Positions 1-41,150 of a stretch of 64,000 bases of DNA are shown here, in pieces. The stretch is from Cladochytrium replicatum. Its lineage: Eukaryota; Chytridiomycota; Chytridiomycetes; Cladochytriales; Cladochytriaceae. The stretch's first letter is position 1. Every line of letters starts with the position of its first letter. The notes under the pieces were generated by a model. That model was given only the letters and a program-made list of their open reading frames with translations, ran no database searches and was not told where the DNA came from. The DNA lies in NCBI GenBank assembly GCA_025526935.1, contig JAHLKD010000027.1, positions 248,001-312,000 on the forward strand, given 5' to 3'. The translations under genes were made by a program, and so were the position numbers.

Positions 1-768
1 TACTAATCATACCATATGTGCACAATGTATTGTCTAGCCCAGATGGATTCCCATGCATGACCTTCTCCGCAACGAACGCCCACTCATTCACCAGCCGTAA
101 ATGATCTTGATCGAAATCAATCTCGTCCTTCCGATCCGCTTCCTTCGGCTTTCCCAGTGCTCCAAATGCTCCCAACATTCCAGCCGCGAGTGCGACTGCA
201 AATGACGCAGACGATCCGAGTCCCCCCGCCAGCGGAAGATCCGACACCAGCGTCAAATCGATACCCGTGGATTTCGACCCTCCTATGGTTTCGCTTCGAA
301 CGCCGCAGAATAGGTAGAGAAATGCCAGGACCGCACGTTTCACGTTCCTATCGTGCAAGCTCCAGCAATGTTGTTCAAGCTGATCCAAGTGGTCTGGAGC
401 TTTGTGTAGACATAAGAAGCATTTTAGTATGGAAATATTTCCACAATGCATGAGTTGGCCTTACTTGATCTAGAGAACTGTGAATTTGGGAGAGCGGACA
501 CGTCCCAGGAGAGGCTGACATTCAAATCGGGCAGGTTGAATTCGACGAGGCTGTCTGCCCTTGTTCTGCAAACAGCGTAGGTGTGCAGGCCGAGACTCGC
601 AGCTACGGCTTTCTGGAGAGATAAAAATCGGTTCGAAATGTGCACATTGTACCAAAGTGATGGCACGCCAACACACACCTTGCCATAAACCACCGCATGC
701 TCCCCGAACAGAATAACCTTTCCAGGTGCCCAAACGAGGACGGGCCGAGATGTAGAATCGACGGTCAT
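1..768 (-). CDS. ERG12: Mevalonate kinase, N-terminal part (runs off window)
   Basis: Mevalonate kinase phosphorylates mevalonate with ATP in the isoprenoid/ergosterol pathway. The protein starts at 768 and residues 13-28 or so read APGKVILFGEHAVVYG, the hallmark GHMP-kinase N-terminus. After an intron near 420-470 the reverse strand continues with PLAGGLGSSASFAVA, the glycine/serine-rich ATP-binding loop, and then HGNPSGLDNT, a conserved mevalonate kinase segment. The frame is still open at base 1, so the C-terminal half lies outside the window. No lesion is visible in the part present. The GHMP superfamily also contains phosphomevalonate and homoserine kinases, but this motif combination fits mevalonate kinase best. 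Confidence 0.93.
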
Positions 769-1060
769 CTGAGTTTATGCTCTAGCGAGTGGTTTAGGGA
801 AGATGCACAAAGTGGGGTGATTTGCGAAGCGTGAGCAATCGGAGTTGTAACTTATTAACAGATATCACAAAAGTTTGGAGATTAAATTACAATTCCAGTT
901 CGGATGGCGAAAGTTGTCTCGTTTGCACGCTGATGCTGACTCATGGCCCATGCAGGTGTGCATAGGTTGACCAGTTTAAACAAAATATGAAATTACAAGG
1001 CATGCGTTGCAGGGCATATTCAATACTGGGCGAGTAAATTTGTTGGTGTTAGAGGGTCTG

Positions 1061-2325
1061 CTAACAGGCTCGGTTGTGAGAGTCTGGTGTTGGTAACGTG
1101 GAAAGTGCATGATCAGATACAAGTTCAGTGGTGGTCGATTGAGGACCTCTGCTTGGCACACCATTCGTCGAGCATTTCCCATTTGAAAGTCGTCTGGATT
1201 TGTTTGGCCTTTCCTCAACACCGTCGTCATCATCTGGTGATAGTGCACGGGAAACCTTCGATTGCCCAATCGTATCTCTGTCACCACTTGTCGCGTCTAC
1301 AATGTCTGCTTGTGCGATCGTCTGTTCTTGCGTACCAGAACTGTCCTTTCCTCTTCAAGACATCACAGCTTCAGCATCACGGAAATTGCAGATTTAGCAA
1401 TCCAACGTTTTGAACTCACTTTTTGCTCCGTGTTTCTTTCCGGATTCTTATCTTCAAACCCTGGTCAGCAAAAATTCGGGAGAGTTGGGTGGATTCTGTC
1501 GTGATTTCATTTTGAGATACCAAAAGGCTGTGGTATGAACGAATACGTACCTTCCATCCCTGGAAACTTCTTAGCTGCATAAACATCTACAAAACGTTGA
1601 GAACAAGATGAGATCCGTTTTCACTCGATGGTACGTACTGAACACATCGGATATGATGGAGGTACAAAAGTAGATCTCGCTGTTGAAAATCTCATACAAC
1701 GAGAACTGTAAGAATTCGCGATCAAAAATTCAAACTGGCAGTGATTTGACTCCGTCAACTACCTTCAGGCGATAAAGCCCATCCATTCGTACCCCGAGAT
1801 CAGGGAACACGAAGAACACCCCGTCTTTTCCATCAATACCTTTGAGTCTGTACAAGCTCGACACCATCGAGCCCGTAGTTGAGCGTGTTTTTCCATCCCG
1901 CAGGAAGTGCAATTCGTCCCCAGAGTCTGGCGCGATCAGAGATGCATATAAAAAGTAATACGAATCCTCCAAGCCCGGAGCTGGTGTGTATGGAGACTTG
2001 GCGTCAATTGATTCGAGTTGCTATTCGAACGAACGAAATCTCTTCATCAGACTGTGTTTGAAATGCTAATATCGCTGCTTACGATGATAGGAGGTGGGTC
2101 CACTGGACGACGGTCCACTGGAGACATTCCGAGTGATATTTGCGGACACAATAAGAAGAAGAGGTCATGCATATACCATTGTCAACCATACCTCCCACCT
2201 TTTTCGCCGAACCCACACATCCTGGAATGCTTAGGCTGCTGCAGCAGGGAGAGTCTGTAGTTCCTCTGAGGTCGATCGCACACAGAGTGATGTAGACCCA
2301 CGAACTGGTAACCCGAGGTCTCCAT
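1061..2325 (-). CDS. Velvet-domain transcriptional regulator (VosA/VelB-like)
   Basis: Velvet proteins are fungal DNA-binding regulators of development and secondary metabolism. The reverse strand gives, over about seven exons, a start METSGYQFVGLHH at 2325, then RNYRLSLLQQPKHSRMCGFG, DRRPVDPPPII, a core with YFLYASLIAPDSGDELHFL, GKTRSTTGSMVSSLYRLK, GVFFVFPDLGVRMDGLYRLK, then FSLYEIFNSEIYFCTSII, VYAAKKFPGMEE and STQLSRIFADQGLKIRIRK. This is the complete velvet order, ending in the usual basic C-terminal motif. Introns are short with clear GT...AG ends; for example, the frame passes from PPPII straight to QLE. The tail after KETRSKK is acidic and Ser-rich, with a small basic cluster (PNKSRR), and stops at TAG 1061-1063; this last exon is the least certain. 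The large insertion typical of VelB is not seen, so it is closer to VosA or VelC in layout. Targets and partners cannot be told from sequence. Confidence 0.88.
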
Positions 2326-3899
2326 CGTTTCTCTTCGGCGTCATAAGCGGGTTGTGCCACAGAGTGTCACATGACCGGAAATAACAACAACGCTGTGGGT
2401 GAGAATCCCGTAAGTCCCTAGAGTCATATTCATTGAGATAACTAGCAAAAATCTCAGTCTTTTAAAAATCAAAGAGTTTCATTCACTGCCTTTCCCACTC
2501 TTCTTTCTTATTCCCCTGCTTGATATTGTGCAACTCATACGTGAAAAATTTTGACTTCTTCCCTTTTGTCAGCCGCTCACCCTTTGCCCCCCTTTGTCTC
2601 ACGTTTAATGATGAATTATCGCTAATGCAAGATTTTAAATCCTGTTGCAGCTGTGAGTACATGTTGCATTTACTCACTAAAACTGCCTCTCCGCGCTCAC
2701 TGCTTCTGAGTTATTGGGTTTCCAGATCTGGTTAAGCCATCCCAAATAGATGCTCAAGTAGTTGAGTGGCTGCAAGATACTCCTGTTAATCTATGGACTT
2801 CATCAAATTATACTCATGTGCACAATTTACCAATTCACAGCCATCATTTTTTCGAAGTCTGTTGTGGGCTTGATTTCTGGGCTTGGTGAAACTTCTACAA
2901 TTTCTTCCAATCCTTTAGGAAGTTTGCAACATCTAGGGAGATACCATGATTCCATTTAGCAAGATATCTTGAGGAGCATGTGAGTATTTGTCTTAACAGA
3001 AAGAAACAAATTGCAACATGTACTTACCACAACGTTTGAAGCCGAGAAATCATATGCATCAATATTGGGGTTGTAGAGCTTCGCAATGATGCTCCCATCA
3101 ATGTTTGTCTTCAAATAATTACTGTGAAATCAGCTACAGACAGCCTTTGAACACACGTTGACCACTAAGCTTCAAACCACCTGATATCTCAAAGCATGTA
3201 TCTGCCCTTATTTTGTCCTCAATCACTGTCATCTGTTCGCAGATTGGCTTGATATCCTTCACAGACTCTTGTAGTGTTCCAAGTTCCTAGCATATATACC
3301 AGCTGTTGCCCTGGATTCAGCCTGCCAGATGCGACCATTTCATCGACTGCTTCGGCACTTCCAAGCAACTCTGAATCCAATCCTCAGAAACAAGGGACAC
3401 ATCAGAGGTGCAAGAGGGGCACGCCACCTCTTCTTGCCTATGGGTTGCTCAAAGATGCAGGTGGCAGTGCACAGGACCAATGCATTGTTGGGGTAAACTC
3501 CATTTGCGCGAAGCGAGGGTTGTGGTGTGCCCCAAGTGTGCCCTAGATACGGATTTGGAGAAAGTGATAGGTAAATGGGGATCTTTCTTTTGTTTGAATT
3601 TAATTCTTTATAGAAAGTTTCATTATTTTGATTTATTTCAAATTTCTATTAATTGCTTCAGAAAGCAGGTGAGTAAAAGATCTCAACGCACTTGCAAATA
3701 GCACATAAATCTTCCTGGACACAGCTATTGACTTACGTGAGCTATATTCAGAAACAGTAGGTTGGTTCCACTTGCTCCTAGTGTTCGGATTGTGCCTAAG
3801 TTATGGAATTACTGTATAAGCAAGGACCGCTACTTTGAAGTTACTATACTTTCAAGAAACAATTCGACAGCGATGGGATCAACTCCCGGCTGCCAACGA
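2326..3899. other. Intergenic stretch without a convincing gene
   Basis: About 1.5 kb upstream of the velvet gene. It is partly T-rich, and its ORFs of 60-110 codons show no family motif. The part beyond about 3260 may be further debris of the copia relic that follows: reverse-strand fragments such as EAVDEMVASGRLNPGQQLV read like gag-type sequence, but I could not anchor them. Confidence 0.5.
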
Positions 3900-5090
3900 C
3901 AATTTCGATTGGTTGAGGTAACCGCACCAGAGATCCGGGGCTCAACAGGATTTTGTCACAGCAAATGTGTATCGAGAATATGTGTCGATGTACCACACCG
4001 TGTGGTTCACAGAAATGATATTGGTTGGTGTAGCATATGCATTCATCTTCCCCTCAATTGCCATCATTACAGACTCGGTCAGCACTTCTGCTACATTGCT
4101 GTGCTCCTTCTTCTCGCCAATCTTCTCTTTTTCTCTTTATCGGAAATTCACTTCCTGCATTCGCGTTGTTAGTAGTGGCCAAGCTTCTCGCAGTAGAAGC
4201 ATTTCACCTTCTTCTTGCAATCTTCTTGCAATCCTTCTTGGCCTTGCTCTCGTCTAAGCCAGAGCCAGAAGATCCCTTCCCACTGTTGCCTTTATTGTAG
4301 ACTGCCATATAGAACGCCTGGTGTTGATCACCAATTGTCAATTGTTGTGTGCCGCTCTGGAGATCAAGCAGTCATAGCCTCCCCCTTGACTACCTCCAAC
4401 TTCTTCTGATCAGCAGGCAGAGCATGGGTCACTGGCACAAAACCAGCATGCTCCAATGGCATCCTAGCCAGACTCTGCTTGACAAAATACTTGTCTGTCA
4501 CCGGGCCGGATCACATTTAACTTCTGCGCAACTCCACAAATCTGTTGGCAGAAAGCCAGCCTTTTCTTTTCAGCCTTCTTCTCCACCAATGCGAGTTCAT
4601 GACTCAGCAGCACAACAGTCACATCAGTCTTTGGAGGTAGGCATCCTTCAGTCATTTCCAAGAGTCCTTCATGGTCTTCGCACCTATCACACGCTGCAAC
4701 CATCTTGTCAGGTAACTCCTCCACCAGACCCACAAGTGCCTTGCGATCCTTCTTCTTTCCATCTCGAGTGGTCGCATCAAACACATGTTCAATTGCATCA
4801 GTCAAGTCCTGAACTCAAGCCAAGACTTTATGCAATATATCAACCAGAAAGCTTGTCGCTGTTCCGTCAAACTTTGGCAGAGCCTGAGCACGATTAGATT
4901 CATCAGCATTGCCCATCACAGGTGTGTGCACAGCAGGCTCAACAATCAGCGCAAAAACAGCTGGCTTGATTTGTTCAATATCAGGTTCTGCTTCTTCCTC
5001 TTCAGGATTAGAGAGGTCTCTCGTCGTCTTTGGAAGAATCGCCAACAAGAGAGTTCTTATGGCGGCTGGGTCAGTGTCACAGTCCAAATT
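3900..5090 (-). mobile_element. Degenerate Ty1/copia gag-protease relic
   Basis: Read on the reverse strand, this holds pieces of a copia polyprotein in the expected order. A gag segment around 5087-4470 contains NADESNRAQALPKFDGTAT. A CCHC-type zinc-knuckle remnant, KKVKCFYCEKLGHY, follows at 4172-4207, and is itself broken by a stop straight after HY. Next come MNAYATPTNIISVNHTVWYI at about 3990-4050 and other residues resembling the copia gag/aspartic-protease junction (VWYIDTYSRYTF). Several frameshifts and stops separate the pieces. No LTRs belonging to this copy were found. It lies opposite in orientation to the short LTR element directly to the right, so it is a separate, older insertion. 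Confidence 0.6.
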
Positions 5091-5327
5091 TGCGGTGGCT
5101 GAGACAGCTGATGGTTTGGACAGATGTTATGGGATACACTCTGTTGTAATGTGGTTCGATCCTGAGACTCATACACACCTTTCAACCATCATGCGTCCTT
5201 TTTTAAGATACAGCTTCCAAACTAATCTACTGTTCCCAAGAAGTAAATATTATTCTGATTATTAAGTAATTCCTCAATCATATCACATGTTCATCACATC
5301 CACTTTGCCATTCTGCAACTGTAAAAT

Positions 5328-5422
5328 TCAAACGTGCACTCTACACAAATGTGCTGTCCTGCCGTAAATCAATAAACACGTGACCACGATCCTCTCTGCA
5401 CAAGAGCTAGTAGAGACTCACA
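5328..5422 (+). repeat. Left LTR of the short copia element
   Basis: It matches 7080-7168 over nearly its whole length, sharing for example CAAACGTGCACTCTACACAA and AAATCAATAAACACGTGACC. It differs by small indels and a few substitutions, which implies that insertion was not very recent. The end ACTCACA is shared with the right LTR; the canonical TGTG start is lost here. Confidence 0.85.
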
Positions 5423-5572
5423 CGTTATCAGCACACTGCTCCAAATCATCAACGATCAAGCTCCAAACTGGCCGGAAAACGTCGCACCCGCTCTACTCGA
5501 AACGGAAACAGGTAAAACAGCCCACCAGCACAACAAAACTACCACCCCAGATCATCACCACCGCCACTCACC

Positions 5573-6830
5573 ATGTCCAACTTGAAGGGCAAGAAGATTA
5601 TCCTGCAGACTGATGGATCCAACTGGATGCCTGGCACGCCAACATCCAGAAAATCGCCATCGCCCACAGTCTCCGCTCATTTTTGGACAAAAACAAAAGT
5701 TATCCCTGACAAAATGATGATGGCAGAATGGACTCAGCAAAAATCTGTCTGGGTTCCTGCACCACCTCCATCTCGAACAAAAACCTCCTCACTTCGCTCA
5801 TTAGCCATCTACATCGGAGTGAATACACCAAAAATTATCAAGTCGCTGGACCCATATACAGGCTATGTGTTCACTGCTCACTTTGCTGATTGTGTTTTTG
5901 ACGAATCTTCTTTCCCAGAACTACATCCCTACCTAAGACTGCAACTACCATCATCTTCACCTCTGACAGTATTCCCAATCGATAACTGGCCCTCTCAGAT
6001 CCCATTCCCTCACCCGAACCCAGCAAACCGCGAATCTCTCACTCAACATGCGATCGCTGCTGCTGAACCACCCACAATCGTTCGGGCACACTCATCACAA
6101 AAACAACAACGCCCCAGCAAATCAACATCAGATGCACCACCAGACAGTACACCAACACCAGCGAACGTCCCTCCAGTTTGACGCACACCAGGTGGTCAGC
6201 CTAAACACCTTCGACAACAACAACCCGACCAACCACCCCAACAACCTCGCAAACGAAACATTACTCCATCACCTACTTGCCACGTCAACAACACACGCAA
6301 AACCTATCATATTAATAGGCCAAAAACATCTCATGTGCAACCTGAAAGTGACAATGACAAGTGGTAGTGGAAAACAGACCCTCTGGGACCACTGTGGTAG
6401 TGGATAATGCCGGCGCCACCGTGGGAGTGAGTAATGCCTCAAATTGTGAAAGTCACAGTGCTCAAACTGGTATGTAAGCAGCATCTTGATGGAGTTGTGG
6501 AGTTGGGAAAACGTTCATTGGAAAATCCATGTTCAATGGCCCTCCGTCTCGCTCTCTGACAGTTGTTTGCTAGCTAGGTCCTCACTCTTTGTGGTGTATG
6601 TTTGGAAGTCCGGCATATCGCTTAAGAGCTGGATTCGATGCTTTTTCTCTATCTTTATTAGTCTTCCATATTTTTATTAACATTTTCTAATCCCAATTAT
6701 CTATTACTCACCAAAATCTCCTCTTCTGAGAACGTGGCCGACTCACTCACCAAAACTCTCGGCTGTATTCAGTTTACCAAACACCGCGATTCCCTTGGTC
6801 TCCGATCTCCTGCAGATATTCCTTCTATGA
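5573..6830 (+). pseudogene. Deleted copia polyprotein inside the short LTR element
   Basis: The frame opens with MSNLKGKKIILQTDGSNW, a gag start; one frame over it continues WHANIQKIAIAHSLRSFLDK, so there is a frameshift near codon 20. Without any protease the sequence then reaches DPYTGYVFTAHFADCVFDE and SSFP, the C-terminal end of copia integrase. The frame closes at 6181. At about 6735-6805 NVADSLTKTLGCIQFTKHRD corresponds to the end of copia RNase H. Between 6182 and 6730 nothing is recognisable. The order gag, integrase tail, RNase H tail with everything else missing points to internal deletions, not a new gene. Confidence 0.75.
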
Positions 6831-7079
6831 CATCCTTGTCCAAAGGGGGAGTCTCTATGCGCGAAATATCACGAGTTGGTCAACGATGTCGATTTGAGGG
6901 GGAGAGAGCCAATATGCATTTTATTCTATTGTTGGGCTTTAGTTCTTTTGTGGCAAAAGACAATAATCGTTCTTCCATTTATTTTCGCTCTATGATTCTT
7001 CGTCGCCGATATATATTTCCTAGAGCACTATGTTTAGTTTTATTTCTCTATGCTTTTACATTTGTTCAGAGTGAGGGGG

Positions 7080-7168
7080 TGTGTCAAACGTGCACTCTAC
7101 ACAAATGTGCCCTCCTGCCATAAATCAATAAACACGTGACCACGATCCTGCACAAGAGCAGACTCACA
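7080..7168 (+). repeat. Right LTR of the short copia element
   Basis: It starts TGTGTCAAACG and ends GACTCACA, so it has the TG...CA ends expected of an LTR. It directly abuts the AAAAT target duplication and contains AATAAA-like sequence (ATCAATAAACACG) that could act as a polyadenylation signal. It sits immediately in front of the ATG of the next gene. Confidence 0.85.
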
Positions 7169-7171
7169 AAA

Positions 7172-8066
7172 ATGCTGTGCCGGATGCTTGGCCTGTGTGG
7201 TGCGCTGCTGCTGCCGCTGGGGCTGGCACCCGGGGTCACGGCGTCAATCAGCAAAATTGTGCGTCGAGTTCCAGGCCAGCTTCCAAACGACCATTCGGTC
7301 CGGAACTGGTATTCGCGCTCGGTTGCAAACCAGACATAGTGATAACTTATCAAACCCCCAGCACTGCGGAACTCTATCCACCATGGTCGCAGATCTCTGC
7401 ATCGCACATCAAAATACCACTTGCCGTCAACGCCCTTGACGATCCTTTCGGCACGGATGTGAATTGCTACAGAATTCAATCTCGGTCCCATCCACAAGTA
7501 ACCTCCGTAATCGCAGCTCTAGGATTTTGGATCGACAGATGGATTGAGCTTCCATTAATGGAATCACTTTCACAAACTGGTGCTGGACGACTGTACGAGT
7601 TTCGAGTTTCATATGCAGTGAGCGTTTTCGGCATTATCCGACAGCGTCGAATTGATTTTTGCTGAAAGCATCCAGCAGCGTTCGACTTGAAGTTGGTTCA
7701 GTCTGGAGGATCAGACATGCTGCTGGTCACCGCCAATCCAGAAGCGTACGTTTCTTCGCGCGTGCTGCGAAATCGAAACTGCATCAACAGCTCGAATAGC
7801 TCCGATCAGTTACGGAATGGCTGTTTCATCAGTGTCCCCTACGATGTCGGTAAGTTCCGAAATGAGACTCGCTCAACGCTTGCTCACATAACCAAGTCAT
7901 GGAACGCCTTTATTTTGGATTTCTTCCGATTTCGGCCATCCCAGTTGTGTTTTGGTGTATTGGGATTCTTTTCTTCGCCTGGCAATTCGTCGTGCCGCTT
8001 GTTGAAGGACAGCTCGAGCCTCTTCGTGCAAGAGCTTTGGGATATACCGAAAAGAAGGACAACTGA
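7172..8066 (+). CDS. Type I membrane protein with signal peptide and KKXX tail
   Basis: The proposed start gives MLCRMLGLCGALLLPLGLA, a classic cleavable signal peptide, followed by PGVTASISKIVRR. Later exons carry DLKLVQSGGSDMLLVTANPE and NGCFISVPYDVG. The last exon encodes MERLYFGFLPISAIPVVFWC with ILFFAWQFVV, one transmembrane helix, then a short tail ending YTEKKDN before TGA 8064-8066. KKDN fits the dilysine KKXX signal for retrieval to the ER, so an ER-resident type I protein is inferred. The middle (7260-7680) needs introns I could not place with certainty. I do not recognise the family; a PIG-X/Pbn1-like ER protein was considered without a decisive motif. The start codon overlaps the target duplication of the LTR element, so the native 5' leader now lies 1.85 kb upstream. 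Confidence 0.6.
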
Positions 8067-32997: not shown

Positions 32998-33119
32998 AGT
33001 ACAGCAACTGTTGGCTACCTATTCCTATTTTCTATGGATTGTGTGGGGGCTTGAGTTTCTGATAGCTTAGTTCTGATGACAGACTTGGAGTCTGGGACTT
33101 ATGCTTGCTGCCTATGCAG

Positions 33120-33300
33120 TAAGGTTCGGCGGGTCCGGGTCGGGTCCGGGTCAGGTTCGGGTTTCAGTGGCGACCCGCATTAAACCCTTTATGTTGGGTC
33201 GTGTTTGTCCAGGCACCCGCCGAGAATACCCGGACCCGAAGTGGTTGAAACCCGTACCCGACCCTGACCCGCCGGGGTTTTGCTGCCCAGGAGAGGATTG
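33120..33300. repeat. GC-rich terminal hairpin, left
   Basis: GGCGGGTCCGGGTCGGGTCC near the start pairs with ACCCGTACCCGACCCTGACC and CGCCGG near 33258-33282, so each element end can fold on itself in addition to pairing with the other end. Confidence 0.7.
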
Positions 33301-33409
33301 ATTGAACTTGAGATAGAACACGGATATTTACATGAACACTTTGTGTCTGTGTGGACAGAGTGTTATTTACAAACACTATCGTAAAGAGAAACAAAACTCC
33401 ACTGAACAA

Positions 33410-34659
33410 TCACAAGTTGATATGTGGAACAGCCCAAATCAGCTTCTGTATCTGGTTCATATTGTCAGAGTCCCATCCACCACTGGTTACATCCTTCGCC
33501 AACCCAGTCCTGATGAACCCATCGATGTCGTCATTTGAAAGCATGAAATCCTTGGCTAAACCTGTCTTCCAAGGTTTCCAATCCACCTCAGGGAGCGTTA
33601 TGGACGAAAGATGCCCAATGTATGCCGTCCAGAACCTTTGCCACTCAGAAGGATATGCATCCACTAATGCTCTGAACATGCGATAGATAGTGGCAGACAT
33701 ACTTAGCGAGTTGTGGTGCCGTATCCAGTTTCTGAGCAAAATGTGCACCCTAAGAAGAGTAAGGCCGCTCCCTGCTACTTGAAGTTGATGTTCGGCTTGA
33801 GTGGTCGTCTGATTCAACAAATATGGGCCGTAAGAACTCACTTTGGGAGAGGACTTTGTAGTTAATGCTGACAAACTTGATTGATGGTGGAAGAGACGGC
33901 AATTTAAGGTCATAAATAACCTCACTGATCTTTTTTCATCTGGAAGCAGATGCCCTGGATGACCTCTTTCACCAAAAGGATAGCTGTACGACGGTGCTGC
34001 TGTAGGCTAAGCAATGCAAGGGAACTGGTTGGAGAACTGGTTTGTTGTACCTTCGGAATTCTACCAATCCCCTTGATAGCCGACGAGATACTTATTGGGC
34101 CGCTGGTTGATGTTGGCGCCGCAGGTGTAGCAGCTTCTGAATGACCAGCCTGTCGTTTCAGAGCAGCAAGCTCTCCCTCCAGGGCGGTCACACGTGATTT
34201 CCATTGTGAAATCTCCTGGGAAGCTGCCTGCTTCTCCCTTTCCATTGCAGCTGTGATCTCCCTGAATCTTGCTAGCTCTTCGTGCTCGCTGTGCTGAATC
34301 AATGCACCAGCCCTGCCCAATTCACCAAGGAGAGCCTTCTCTTGCACTTCTGCTGCAATGGGGGTCCTTCTCTCGTTCATTGCCGTCTCTTCAAGATCTT
34401 TTGTCATGTTCAACAGTCGTTCTGACTGTTTGAGGACTTGTTTTGTCCTTTCACGGTCCTCATCTGCTTGTTTGATGGTCACTTGGAACTCGTCAACCTT
34501 TGCAGTGACAGGCTTTCCTCTGTAAATGCCGTACTTGTGTCCCTGCCGCCTGTAAAAGTCCAGAAATGTTGTTTCCTTCTGAAAGGAAGAGCTTTTCAAG
34601 CACTCCATACGACAGGCGTTTGCTGCTGTTATGAACTCCGTTCGTCCACTACATTCATC
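33410..34659 (-). pseudogene. Truncated left copy of element-borne coiled-coil gene
   Basis: It starts mid-gene at DECSGRTEFITAANAYRMEC and runs through SSSFQKETTFLDFYRRQGHK, a coiled coil (QVLKQSERLLNMTKDLEETA; EHEELARFREITAAMEREKQ; SRVTALEGELAALKRQAGHS) and a C-terminal part with YRMFRALVDAYPSEWQRFWT and KDFMLSNDDIDGFIRTGLAK. It has a frame break around 33920 and lacks the N-terminal 150 residues present on the right side. The protein family is unknown. Confidence 0.65.
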
Positions 34660-34708
34660 CTCTCTATCAATGTTACTAGCAATACAATTCTGTCTACCCG
34701 GACACTTT
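34658..34708 (-). repeat. Fragment of the 97-bp repeat at the left arm junction
   Basis: CCTCTCTATCAATGTTACTA followed by GCAATACAATTCTG and TACCCGGACACTTTCC is a partial reverse-complement unit of the minisatellite found 2.3 kb to the right. It abuts the inner end of the left arm. Confidence 0.75.
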
Positions 34709-34816
34709 CCAAGAAGTCACAACAGAAGTTCTGTAACAAACAATTTCTACCACGACAGACCTCGAGAGCTGTTCTTTCTGTGCACCTGGACACGTTCCAG
34801 CCACACCACAGCAAAA

Positions 34817-36954
34817 ATGGACGCTGCCTTTGTTAAACCAAAGCGTAAGGCAGCATCCAACGCAAGCCAAAGACTGGTGGACAGTCATCCGCTTGACACA
34901 CGGAAGCAAAGTCTGCCAGCCCCCCAAATTTCAGAGGCGTCCAGCGAGGGGAACATCATGCAGGACAAACGCAGACGTGTATCAGGACACGGTGGCAACA
35001 ACAGCGCTCGAGAGCCGAGCTCCACATCTTCTTCCAATGACTCCAGCGAGTTGGGCCCGGCTTCTCAGCATGCACCAGAGCTTCCTGCCGACGTTAGTTT
35101 TGCTGACTCTTCAGTGCGACAGGAGCCTGCAGCTGGATCAGTTCAACCATCAATGCTTTCATCAGAGGCAGATGTTGAAGGTCGATAAGACGGGATCAAC
35201 AAAAAACTTCCTCCGGCATCTGAAAAACCACCATGGAAGTATTGCCAGGTCGCTTGGACTGTTGGACATTGTCCCCAAGGGACAACAGACATTGAATTTC
35301 GGCTCGCAGGAGAAGGAGCAAGACTTTGTGTTCAATCCAGACGTAGCGTGGCGGTCGATTTTGGACTGGATTGCTGCAGACAATCAGGCTTTTACTGTTG
35401 TGGAGAACGAGTTCTTTGTCAGCATGCTGAAGACTTTTCAGCCAAACTATACACCAAAGACGGCAAAAGCAGTGAAGCAAAAAGGAGATGGATCTTTACG
35501 ATAGGCAGAAGGAGCTCATTAAAGGTCTGATTGTTGGTTCACGTTCAAAAGTATCAATAACAGCTGACTGTTGGACATCGAAGAACCAGATTTCTTTTCT
35601 TGGAATTACTGCCCACTTCATCACGAAAGAATGGGAGCCGCAGGACTTGCTGCAGATGATTCCGATGGTTGGAAAGCATGAAGGCGTCGCCATGGCTAGT
35701 CAGCTTGTCAAGTGTCTGGATGAATTTGGCATGCTATCGGGTGAACGCTTATTGTGCATTACAACCGACAACGGTTCAAACAACTTTACCATGAGTGCTA
35801 AGCTGGAGACGCTCTTGGAAGATAGGGATATTGCGTGGTCTGCAGAAACTCAACACATGCGGTGTATGGCACACATTATCAATCTTGCAGCAAAGGATTT
35901 TATCGATACATTCGCGCCCGCAGTCAAACGAGCCTTACAGCTACGAGAGGCAATGGACAAAATATGCTGGATTGAAGATTCTTTGAAAGATTGGTCAATA
36001 AATCCAAAGCAATGGGAGGTCCTACAGAAGATCCGGGATGGTTTGAGTGTTTTCGAGGTTATATCAAAGGCAATCGAGGGGTCTAGATATCCAACACTTC
36101 CGCTTGTTATTCCATTTTACAACGATCTTATCGATCAACTGGAGGACCTAGAGGATGCAGAATTAGATGAAACTTTCACCAAAGCATTTCGAAATGCACT
36201 AGATAAGCTGAGAATATATTACTCAATCGCTAAGAGCCCGTGTTTAGCAGTTGCTACGGTACTCGATCCTCGTTTTAAGGATCAATATTATCGATTTTCA
36301 AAGGCTTGGGAGAAAGATGTAGGAAGGGATCAGGTCACCCTAGTGCGGAAAGTCTGGGAGGAATCGTATAAGTCACGGAAAATCAAGAACAGTGGTGCCG
36401 ATGTTTTTGGAAACACGCCAGAACGTCGACACGATTCGAGCGGAGCTTCCGGTGATAGACAGAAAAAAACGGACGCTGAACGCTTGAGAGCCATTAGATC
36501 CGTTTTCATCTGGCAAGAAGAGATTCCTGAGGAAAAAGATGAGCTGGATCGCTATCTTGGCGATCAGGTACTCCGCGGTATTGATTCTGATGGGAAGCCA
36601 ATCAATATTATGGACTGGTGGAAGACCGTTGGAAGTGTGAACTTTCCAGCCCTAAGCCAGATGGCAATGGACTATTTAGGAATACCAGCAACAAGCGCTC
36701 CAGTCGAACGAAAGTTTTCAGCCGGGGTTGATTTGGTACCTGCAACTCGCAACCGCCTTGCTCCAATAACAATAAATGCGTTGATGTGCCGTCATGACTG
36801 GTAGCATCAATTGAGTGCTGAAGAACCGTTCAAAAATGATTCCCTAGATTCAAAAAGTGATGTTAGTGAGGATTTTGTAAAGGTGCATAATTTTGGCGAG
36901 GATTTTGATGTGGTATTAGAGTTGGAAGCAACTGATGATAACCCACTCTTTTAA
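34817..36954 (+). pseudogene. hAT transposase, frameshifted
   Basis: The C-terminal 440 residues (from 35488) contain KVSITADCWTSKNQISFLGI (first catalytic Asp), LLCITTDNGSNNFTMSAKLE (second Asp), MRCMAHIINLAAKDFI, LAVATVLDPRFKDQYY and the hAT C-terminal dimerisation block LGIPATSAPVERKFSAGVDL with PATRNRL. Upstream in another frame, KTGSTKNFLRHLKNHHGSIA is the second half of a BED zinc finger; the Cys half is missing. The N-terminal segment (MDAAFVKPKRKAASNASQR, 34817) is in yet another frame. A one-base slip occurs in the A-run near 35487. A TAG at 36802-36804 follows CRHDW, after which the same frame stays open with an acidic tail to TAA 36952-36954. These lesions suggest the copy no longer makes an active enzyme. 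Confidence 0.85.
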
Positions 36955-36985
36955 ATATAAATTGTTGTTTAGACTGTTCATCTGT

Positions 36986-37815
36986 TGAAGTACCGTCCAG
37001 GAGTTGAGAAAGCGACCGCCTGGACAGAATCCTATTACAAGTAGTATTTGTAGAGAGGTTGGTTGTACTTGATCGAGATCAGTGAAGTATCAGTGAAGTA
37101 CCGTCAATGAGTTGAGAAAGTGTCCGGGTGGACAGAATCTTATTGCTAGTAACATTATTAGAGAGGTTAGCTGTACTTGATAGAGATCACTGAAGTACCG
37201 TCAATGAGTTGAGAAAGTTTCCAGGTGGACAGAATCCTATTACTAGTAACATTGATAGAGAGGTTAGTTGTATTGGGTAGAGATCACTGAAGTACCGTCA
37301 ATGAGTTGAGAAAGTGTCCGGGTGGACAGAATCCTATTGCTAGTAGTATTTGTAGAGAGGTTAGCTGTACCTGATAGAGATTACTGAAGTACCGTCAATG
37401 AGTTGAGAAAGTGTCCGGGTGGACAGAATCGTATTGCTAGTAACATTGATAGAGAGGTTAGTTGTAATGGATAGAGATCACTGAAGTACCGTCAATGAGT
37501 TGAGAAAGTGTCCGGGTGGACAGAATCGTATTGCTAGTAACATTGATAGAGAGGTTAGTTGTATTGGATAGAGATCACTGAAGTACCGTCAATGAGTTGA
37601 GAAAGTGTCCGGGTGGACAGAATCGTATTGCTAGTAACATTGGTAGAGAGGTTAGTTGTATTGGGTAGAGATCACTGAAGTACCGTCAATGAGTTGAGAA
37701 AGTGTCCGGGTGGACAGAATCCTATTGCTAGTAGTATTTGTAGAGAGGTTAGCTGTACCTGATAGAGATTACTGAAGTACCGTCAATGAGTTGAGAAAGT
37801 GTCCGGGTGGACAGA
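36986..37815 (+). repeat. 97-bp tandem repeat array (about nine units)
   Basis: GAAGTACCGTCAATGAGTTG recurs (the first unit with variants) at 36986, 37094, 37192, 37289, 37386, 37483, 37580, 37677 and 37774. Spacing is 108, 98 and then six times exactly 97 bp. Each unit also has GTGTCCGGGTGGACAGAATC, which holds the small palindrome TGTCCGGGTGGACA, and AGAGAGGTTAG. The array lies directly 3' of the transposase gene. Confidence 0.9.
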
Positions 37816-37856
37816 AATCTGGGAGACTGAGTGTCACTGTGTTTGTCTGGGTAGAA

Positions 37857-37999
37857 TAGGATTCTGTCCCCCCGGACACTTTCTCAACTCATTGACGGTA
37901 CTTCAGTAATCTCTATCAGGTACAGCTAACCTCTCTACAAATACTACTAGCAATAAGATTCTGTCCACCCGGACAGAATCCTCTCTATCAATGTTACTA
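37857..37999 (-). repeat. Inverted units of the 97-bp repeat
   Basis: After a 40-bp spacer the unit reappears in reverse complement (ATTCTGTCC...CCGGACACTTTCTCAACTCA, then CGGTACTTCAGTAATCTCTA), followed by a second partial inverted unit ending CTATCAATGTTACTAGC. With the direct array it forms a large potential hairpin. Confidence 0.85.
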
Positions 38000-38142
38000 G
38001 CCAGTTTCTTCCCTAGCTTATTATTATTTTCAGATCGGGTAGAAAACTATAGTGTCAGGGAAGTATTATAGCATACATTCCTGTAACATTCCGGCTAAGA
38101 ACACCGGGCCAGTATCTTCCCACGACAAAGAGTACAAACACC

Positions 38143-39840
38143 ATGCCTCGAACTACAAAGAAGCGAGCGTTAAAACAATCCAGACCATCATCTGAAAGAG
38201 AATCAAGTGCAGAACCTGTGACTGCACCTGAAACATCTCTGGCATCGGGTTCTGAAGTGGAAGAAGCAGAAGTTGGCCTTGATGTCAAATCGACAGATGT
38301 CAAATCGACAGATGTCAAATCGACAGCTCCTTCAAAGAAACCGGCGCGACGTGGTACTAAAGGGGATGCTGACTATTTGCTCATCGACGGACTCTGTCCT
38401 GCTTCAGACATACGACTTTGGTATCGAAAATTCAAAGCGAGCGGCCACAGCTACGACTCGGAGGACTTCATCAGCAACTGTCAAACAAATCGTGATGAAT
38501 GCGGCCCAAGATTTGTTCTTCAAGGGTTGATCGACCGACTTAACTCTGACAGCAAGCTAGTTCGTCAAGCCCTGAACAAAATTCACGATGAATGCAGTGG
38601 ATGAACGGAGTTCATAACAGCAGCAAACGCCTATCGTATGGAGTGCTTGAAAAGCTCTTCCTTTCAGAAGGAAACAACATTTCTGGACTTTTACAGGCGG
38701 CAGGGACACAAGTACGGCATTTACAGAGGAATGCCCGTCACTGCAAAGGTTGACGAGTTCCAAGCGACCATCAAACGAGCAGATGAGGACCGTGAAAGGA
38801 CAAAACAGGTCCTCAAACAGTCAGAACGACTGTTGAACATGACAAAAGTTCTTGAAGAGACTGCAATGAACGAGAGAAGGACCCGCATCGCAGCAGAAGT
38901 GCGAGAGAAGGCTCTCATTGATGAATTGGGCAGGGCGGGTACATTGATTCAGCACAGCGAGCACGAAGAGCTAGCAAGATTCAGGGAGATCACTGCTGCA
39001 ATGGAAAGGGAGAAGCAGGCAACTTCCCAGGAGATTTCACAATGGAAATCACGTGTGACCGCCCTGGAGGGAGAGCTTGCTGCTCTGAAACGACAGGCTG
39101 GTCATTCAGAAGCTGCAGCACCTGCGGCGCCAACATCAACAGGCGGCCTAATAAGCATATCGTCGGCTATCAAGGGGATTGGTAGAATTCCGAAGGTACA
39201 TCGAACCAGTTCTCCAACGAGTTCCCTTGCATTGCTTAGCCTGCAGCAGCATCGTCGTACGGCTATCCTTTTGGTGAAAGAGGTCATCCAGGGTATCTGC
39301 TTCCAGATGCATAAGATCAATGAGGTTATTTATGACGTTAAATTGCCGTCTCTTCCACCATCAATCAAGTACGTCAATGTAAACTACGAAGTCCTCTCCC
39401 GAAATGAGTTTTTACGGCCCATATTTGTTGAATCAGACGACCGCTCAAGCTGAATATCAACTTCAAGTAGCAGTTCTCGGAGCAGCCTTACTCTTCTTAG
39501 GGTGCACATTTTGCTCGGAAACTGGATACGGCACAATAATTCGCTAAGTATGTCTGCCACTATCTATCGCATGTTCAGGGCATTAGTGGATGCATATCCT
39601 TCTGAGTGGCTAAGGTTCTGGACGGCATACATCGGGCATCTTTCGTCCATAACGCTCCCTGAGGTGGATTGGAAACCTTGGAAGACAGGTTTAGCCAAGG
39701 ATTTCATGCTTTCAAATGACGACATTGATCGGTTCATCAGGACTGGGTTGGCGAAGGACGTAACCAGTGGTGGATGGGACTCTGACGATATGAACCAGAT
39801 ACAGAAGCTGATTTGGGCTGTTCCACCTATCAACTTGTGA
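38143..39840 (+). pseudogene. Element-borne coiled-coil gene, fuller right copy
   Basis: It opens MPRTTKKRALKQSRPSSERE, a basic leader, then has an exact triple repeat VKSTD (15-bp unit at about 38282-38328), and LLIDGLCPASDIRLWYRKFK with SYDSEDFISNCQTNRDECGP. TGA at 38602-38604 interrupts DECSG-stop-TEF; the left arm has CGA (Arg) there and the frame is otherwise continuous, so this is one gene of about 560 codons. The middle is a long coiled coil. The C-terminus is reached after a frame break between about 39453 and 39502. No family is recognised: it is not a transposase, and no nuclease motif was seen. It may be an accessory protein of the element. Confidence 0.65.
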
Positions 39841-40140
39841 TTGCTCAGTGGAGTTTTGTTTCTTTTTACGATAGTGTTTCTAAAATACACACTCTCCACA
39901 CAGACACAAAGTGTTCATGTAAATATCCGTGGTCTAACTCAAAATTTAATCAATCCTCTCCTGGGCAGCAAAAACCCGGCGGGTCAGGGTCGGGTACGGG
40001 TTTCAACCACTTCGGGTCCGGGTATTCCCTTTGTACCCGTCAGTGACCCGGCGGGTCCACAGACAAACACGACCCGACCCAAAGGGTTTGGTGCGGGTCG
40101 CCACTGAAACCCGGACCCGACCCGGACCCGCCGAACCTTA
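38587..40140 (+). repeat. Right inverted arm
   Basis: Inverted partner of 33120-34659. It contains the 3' two thirds of the coiled-coil gene and the terminal GC-rich hairpin at about 39965-40140. Unlike the left arm, its coding sequence extends inward beyond the repeat to an N-terminus at 38143. Confidence 0.85.
39965..40140. repeat. GC-rich terminal hairpin, right
   Basis: Mirror image of the left terminal hairpin: CCCGGCGGGTCAGGGTCGGG near 39976 pairs with CCCGACCCGGACCCGCCG at the end of the element. Confidence 0.7.
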
Positions 40141-41150
40141 GTAGAAACCACACTACCCCTGTCCCCACCTCTACCCCTACCGGCACCAAAAACTACCCTG
40201 CTTTCCAGTCTGAGGGTGGCAGCAGCAGACTCTGCAACCGGTGGCATTGTTGATGTCTTCAGTTGCTGCTATCGGTGCCTTCGCTGGCACTGTTTTCTAC
40301 ATCAACAATGTTTGCAAGGTTGACAACACCTCCATGGCATAAGCACTGACTTTAGAGACTTTTGCTTGCGGTCACACAAACATTCAGTATTTTTGCATAT
40401 GTTTTGGAACGATTCGTTATCGAATAAGTTTTTCGCCTTGAAATTTTGCTAAGATTTTGGATCAGAAACATTGTCTGAATAACATTCGCGATATCAATGA
40501 GGAATTGTGATTGTTTTAAAGACCAGATATGATGCTAAGGAGGCAGACAACTGCAGCAAACAACATGACAACAAATGTCAAATAAGGGCAACAGCTTAAT
40601 GCAGTTGGAAGGCGGAAATGGTCAAATGGTGTTCAGTCTGTAATGAAAAAACACCACAACAAGTGAACATGGATAGACAAATGGTGAGATCAAAGTTTTC
40701 TTACTTTCTCAATTATAGTACTTTCGTCCACACTGCCGTTTCGTGATTAATTGAGATGGCAGAAGAACCAACAGAACGGGGCTCGTTCCCACGAACCTGC
40801 AAACTACTGACACTTCTGAAATGTTGTTTATTTCTATGTTTATTCTCTATACAACTATTTATACTTATTTCTCAATGGTTTTCTTTATTTCTGAAACATT
40901 GATGCAACTGTGCTATTGACAAGTCACATGATGTTTTCCACCAACATCCACGAGTCGCTCACAGTAGTCAGCTGCTCATAAACTAATCTTTTTCTGCCTT
41001 CAGTATGGACAGCATGAGGCGAACGCGATCGACTTCGCACTAATTCAGTTCTACGACAAATCCTGCCTGAATATAAAGAATGGAACATGCTATACCACAC
41101 TAACATAACTAAGATTATAATATACGGCCGGCCTAAGGTTAATAGTATCA
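40141..41150. other. Region right of the element, no gene resolved
   Basis: Just outside the element the plus strand reads a Pro/Ser/Thr-rich fragment and VAAIGAFAGTVFYINNVCK, which resembles the C-terminal end of a wall or membrane protein, but no start or upstream exon exists. The element or its predecessor may have replaced the rest. The remainder is AT-rich and empty. Confidence 0.35.

Follow-up and report, generated by a model that had tools for sequence, protein, structure and literature searches.

Long inverted arms around a hAT transposase in Cladochytrium replicatum very probably mark a dead chimeric copy of an abundant, apparently two-gene family

A hAT transposase gene placed between two 1.5-kb inverted arms raises the question of whether such arms are the true ends of an unusual mobile element or arose by rearrangement of a single copy. 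This layout occupies positions 33120-40140 (the window unit) of the window that we analyzed, a stretch of 64,000 nucleotides from Cladochytrium replicatum (C27:248001-312000; genome 50.5 Mb, 198 contigs), where the original prediction read it as a fold-back hAT element. The inverted arms that it described, of 1,540 and 1,554 bp, proved to be real: end-to-end alignment gave 94.4% identity over 1528 positions with five gaps, a similarity far above chance expectation, and six gapless inverted matches (I1, I2, I3, I11, I12 and I23) span almost all of both arms. A hAT transposase was indeed confined to the centre, where the Pfam hAT dimerisation domain PF05699 was detected in the ORF 35488-36804 (E 1.9e-19), and a coiled-coil gene does lie partly in the arms, reaching into the right one and leaving a remnant in the left one (Table 1).

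The canonical element of the family was defined from four copies in neighbourhoods of 9.5-10 kb. These copies were 7.3-7.8 kb long and had unlike left (L) and right (R) ends, TAAGGATCGGCGGGTTTTAGGG and TAAGGTTCGGCGGGTCCGGG, respectively (the latter with one mismatch in L041), which share short terminal inverted repeats (TAAGGATCGGCGGGT and TAAGGTTCGGCGGGT; 14 of the first 15 bases in common). From the L end to the R end, the ~7.5-kb element carries a reversed array of 97-bp units, the transposase gene (811 aa), a forward array, a short reversed array and a second gene (gene 2; 560 aa). In L040 the element lies at 484-7981 with TGCGTTAC on each side as an 8-bp duplication, and it retains both the 811-aa hAT transposase frame and the 560-aa second frame; no 8-bp duplication was found around the other three canonical copies. 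The canonical transposase has the hAT C-terminal dimerisation domain, matching PF05699 (E 2.2e-20) and Hermes chains (E 2e-12 to 5e-12). The four copies are longer than the 2.5-5 kb that part of PMC3942097 gives as the usual, though not strict, length of hAT elements, together with terminal inverted repeats of 10-25 bp.

The family is abundant, with 400 R ends, 347 L ends, 258 transposase motifs and 268 gene-2 starts found genome-wide at up to three mismatches. The 811-aa transposase frame was intact in 14 of 20 distinct loci (window left out), and a gene 2 frame of at least 560 aa was present in 7 of 20 (window included; some loci may hold a partial gene); these loci were the best matches and are hence a biased sample, in which L015 and L039, L028 and L041, L026 and L042, and L005 and L040 were each counted once. 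A single base separates the R arm of L040 from its counterpart in L041, and likewise from that in L042. Such close copies, together with the perfect duplications, suggest that the family was recently active. Its intact copies seem to be two-gene hAT elements.

Judged by exact ends, most units of the family have one L and one R end. Using the first 100 exact sites listed per end, of which 99 R and 94 L sites lay on C1-C53, we found 56 facing adjacent pairs less than 12 kb apart (48 L-R, 4 L-L and 4 R-R); ends with mismatches are omitted from this census, and some pairs are thus misjudged. For the 46 L-R pairs that remain when those of C50 and C53 are set aside, as the transposase sites listed end within C50, exact gene motifs, which undercount, were found for both genes in 26, for the transposase only in 11, for gene 2 only in 3 and for neither in 6. 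Flanks were compared for L040, L041 and 19 of the 48 L-R pairs; 12 of these 21 L-R units had an 8-bp duplication, 11 of the 12 being perfect and one matching at 7/8, and nine units had none. None of the eight same-end pairs, including the window unit, was so flanked (best match 5/8; Fisher p 0.009). An A at position 7 was present in 11 of the 12 duplications, a T at position 2 in 6 and both in 5, close to the hAT target pattern, which is nTnnnnAn; T at 2 and A at 7 occurred together in 7 of 16 same-end flanks.

Several L-R units departed from the canonical form. In L039 (C27:363500-373499), another rearranged copy ~76 kb from the window element, a full-length L-R unit is bordered on its left by gene 2 sequence of a different copy; on the right that gene is not resumed, and no duplication is present. 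Four shorter units of 2.2-2.6 and 5.4 kb (C9:172156-177559, C10:598701-601260, C9:610651-613208 and C25:151812-154012) lacked one or both exact gene motifs. Perfect 8-bp duplications flanked two of the three that were tested, C9:172156 and C10:598701, and therefore shortened copies have moved.

The window unit ends in an R terminus on either side, an L end being absent (Table 1), and both R termini are perfect over 32 bp and face outward. At the junction 34659/34660, the middle of gene 2 is joined to the last 50 bp of a left array, with at most one shared base as judged by eye. The central region is close to the canonical element (22 differences in 2294 positions between the window transposase region and L040). 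Relative to the intact frame of L040, the window transposase shows three deletions, of 107, 3 and 189 bp, and one inserted base; 13 bp are gone immediately upstream of it, and no intact transposase frame is left. We rejected the idea that the 107- and 189-bp gaps are lost introns of a retrocopy, since L040 reads through both in one 811-aa frame. Because the transposase carries deletions and gene 2 has two stops, the window unit is a dead composite.

Table 1. Features of the window unit and its flanks, in window positions
Feature	Position	Strand	Remarks
Left flanking 8-mer CTATGCAG	33112..33119	.	T at 2, A at 7; mismatches right flank
Left arm, inverted right end, apparently of a divergent subfamily	33120..34659	-	R terminus at 33120
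Decayed 3' part of gene 2, within left arm	33410..34608	-	Two ORFs; small indels relative to L040
50-bp remnant of canonical left 97-bp array	34660..34709	-	Adjoins junction 34659/34660
hAT transposase pseudogene	34817..36954	+	107- and 189-bp deletions relative to L040, smaller indels
Forward array of 97-bp units with GTCCGGGT-type motifs	36986..37873	+	
Short reversed array unit, upstream of gene 2	37855..37975	-	
Second gene (560 aa in L040, coiled coil)	38143..39840	+	Two in-frame stops in window copy
Right arm, canonical right end	38587..40140	+	R terminus at 40140; ~99% identity to four copies
Right flanking 8-mer GTAGAAAC	40141..40148	.	T at 2, A at 7

No 8-bp duplication surrounds the window unit, CTATGCAG and GTAGAAAC agreeing at 3/8 positions. 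Taken alone, this absence is weak evidence because 9 of the 21 L-R units also lack a duplication. In each of the two differing flanks, position 2 is T and position 7 is A, a combination with a frequency of 6.9% among host 8-mers and one that two half-lost insertions could leave; the fit is only suggestive, since just 5 of the 12 real duplications carry both letters.

A mobile fold-back lineage whose 1.5-kb arms are its true ends would account for the two outward-facing perfect termini, and a similar R-R layout exists on C31. However, a duplication was found at none of the four R-R pairs (best match 5/8, at C31), 48 of the 56 facing pairs are of the L-R type, and the window junction was matched in full by the window alone among the best 40 of 1044 first-look candidates. 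The C31 junction moreover differs, having a gene-2 start on both sides. What recurs with duplications is thus the L-R copy, and recurrent long-arm copies flanked by target duplications were not found among these candidates and pairs. Considering also that the family ends are short and unlike, we regard fold-back mobility as extremely unlikely; the arms that gave rise to the idea are one copy's rearrangement.

The C31 unit nevertheless bears on how two R ends can come to face each other. (The four listed R-R pairs are the window unit, which was read whole, one on C31, read in part, one on C14, which consists of two neighbours, and one on C13.) At C31:11280-19821, each of the two R ends has a gene-2 start inward of it at the canonical distance. 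In L124, a 2-kb piece of this unit (C31:13400-15400), the array that begins at the left gene 2 switches, within the array, to an oppositely oriented left array followed by the transposase. It looks like a second R-R unit with its switch inside the array, which suggests that such units arise when an element recombines by way of its inverted 97-bp arrays.

Other same-end candidates were of different kinds. We rejected C14:488231-495533 as a third R-R unit, because it starts with a ~2.58-kb R-L deletion derivative beside another R end, and C14:468416-476777 as an L-L unit, because it holds a full L-R element whose mismatched R end abuts the array and L end of another copy. In L077 (C14:495490-495670), two R termini of the same orientation lie 101 bp apart, where the last stretch of the R end seems to be tandemly repeated. 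For the L-L pair at C34:7402-10465 (L118 and L119), 7.4 kb from the contig start, the flanks only were read; the 20-bp outer flanks are exact reverse complements, the host flanks being part of a palindrome, either an inverted duplication or an assembly palindrome. The other two listed L-L pairs lie on C3 and C10.

The divergence of the arms indicated where the left arm came from. It differs by 5.6% from the right arm of the window and by 5.3-5.6% from the R arms of the four other copies (94.4% and 94.4-94.7% identity, respectively), whereas the right arm is 98.9-99.2% identical to those same copies (~1% divergence). Inverted duplication was another alternative offered by the original prediction. 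It would here have copied the window unit's own right end, for instance by template switching in gap repair, and is in line with both arms holding the same segment. These distances disfavour it, because the left arm is as far from its supposed parent as from the four other copies, and a ~fivefold faster mutation in the left arm alone would be required; we consider such self-duplication very improbable, and the template in gap repair could instead have been another copy. An assembly artefact joining two repeats is conceivable for a high-copy family in an assembly of 198 contigs. It is very unlikely here: with 85 substitutions and indels between the arms, a hairpin formed within reads does not fit, and the left arm is a sequence distinct from the others, with no R end elsewhere nearer to it than ~94% among the best 40 of 553 candidates scored. 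A close version of its diagnostic 37-mer occurs at 15 other genome sites (16 including the window). The left arm would thus be an inverted R end from an older, divergent subfamily, which seems to exist on these sequence comparisons.

We therefore conclude that the window unit is very probably a chimera, now dead, within an abundant family of two-gene hAT elements: its L end is missing, and in that position stands an R end, inverted and derived from an older subfamily. This upholds the suggestion that two elements had been combined, the two being joined right end to right end. One element lacks its L end and nearly all of its left array, and a second element is attached at this place by its inverted R end. 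This may have happened by recombination between two inverted copies through the inverted arrays, or by a deletion joining two neighbouring elements, in either case with further deletions afterwards. Since one element's two arrays are mutual inverted repeats, copies in opposite orientation that exchange segments would give rise to same-end units of both kinds, R-R and L-L. The two kinds were indeed equally frequent among the listed pairs (four each), but at least one of each kind represents neighbouring or abutting elements on C14. The window junction sits in gene 2 and not inside an array on both sides, so that a later deletion after array exchange and the plain joining of neighbours are equally possible.

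Searches with the flank 8-mers for predicted exchange partners revealed no L end with exact CTATGCAG or GTAGAAAC. The first search returned 12 sites, all with two mismatches, and the second two sites with one and four with two mismatches; the reversed control of the second gave two sites, and no site was accepted as a partner. Another possible source of the window unit is the alternative transposition that has been reported in maize Ac to involve ends lying close together (PMC3744419). Whatever its source, the unit would be expected to be immobile as such, because a Hermes RE/RE transposon with two right ends had no activity in cells (PMC10368747, in part) and duplications are absent at the R-R pairs.

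Over 414 codons, gene 2 of the left arm differs from that of L040 by 27 synonymous substitutions (279.8 sites) and 35 nonsynonymous ones (962.2 sites). This one sequence pair gives a dN/dS of 0.36 (Fisher p 1.5e-4), which shows apparent purifying selection on gene 2 during subfamily divergence; at present the left-arm copy carries small frame-shifting indels. Across Pfam, NCBIfam, PDB sequences and IMG/VR, a scope without eukaryotic protein databases or repeat libraries, gene 2 had no convincing relative: the matches were weak in Pfam (best E 0.019, below cut-off), weak and over the coiled coil in NCBIfam (best E 1.4e-4, with 21 bits where the cut-off is 208.65), two in number and weak in PDB (E 0.86 and 0.97), and absent in IMG/VR. 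A single-sequence AlphaFold2 model was poor (pLDDT 47.1, pTM 0.22), its best-scored part being a helix at 199-319 with block means of 72-81 from ~211 to 310. A 15-bp tandem repeat in gene 2, encoding VKSTD units, has three units in the window (38281-38325) and two in L040 (6137-6167); its length differs between copies, and intact frames are of 560 or 565 aa.

In canonical copies an array is reversed upstream of the transposase, forward downstream of it and, in short form, reversed upstream of gene 2, and therefore each gene has this repeat in front of it, oriented alike with respect to its reading frame. Counted together with its complement, the 8-mer GTCCGGGT is present 29 times in the element of L040 compared to once in the remaining 56.7 kb of the window. 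In L040 it lies close to both termini and then recurs in ~97-bp steps along the arrays. From its placement, GTCCGGGT would naturally be taken as a candidate binding site shared by the transposase or the gene 2 product. A bolder and doubtful, though possible, reading is that this is a true two-protein hAT, in which the gene 2 product would be a partner maintained by selection, a DNA-binding or assembly factor that acts with the transposase on GTCCGGGT sites, and the arrays would serve as self-controlled promoters, as a landing platform and as the weak spot that yields R-R and L-L units.

The locus thus carries a caution, namely that a transposase enclosed by a long inverted repeat may be just one dead copy shaped by rearrangement, and the intact family is of greater interest than the arms. 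For the proposal of a novel hAT lineage the arms give no support; what novelty remains lies in the two-gene hAT family with paired arrays, which may be undescribed, no two-gene hAT being described in the titles or abstract openings of the literature matches listed. The hAT superfamily usually has one protein, and a hAT with a second selected gene and matching arrays before both genes would, if true, offer a system for studying how a one-protein superfamily gains a partner protein.

Like Ac, Hermes and BuT2, the family has a C-terminal dimerisation domain, 8-bp duplications, short end repeats and repeats within its ends, which in Hermes are bound by the BED domains of the transposase (PMC10368747, in part). 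Unlike them, the canonical element is ~7.5 kb long, has a second gene and bears inverted 97-bp arrays before both genes. A transposase accompanied by a second element-encoded protein recalls PIF/Harbinger, as described in part of PMC2836001, although the transposase here is of the hAT type and the role of the second protein is putative. Galileo, of the P superfamily in Drosophila, resembles the window unit in having coding sequence in long inverted arms and a reversed copy at the opposite end, and ectopic recombination is named there among other processes (PMC4168063, in part). The Pfam matches here were to hAT domains and none was to a P-type transposase. In PMC4168063 the long arms of Galileo are taken to belong to copies that transpose, whereas those of the window unit sit in a dead copy from a hAT family with short ends.
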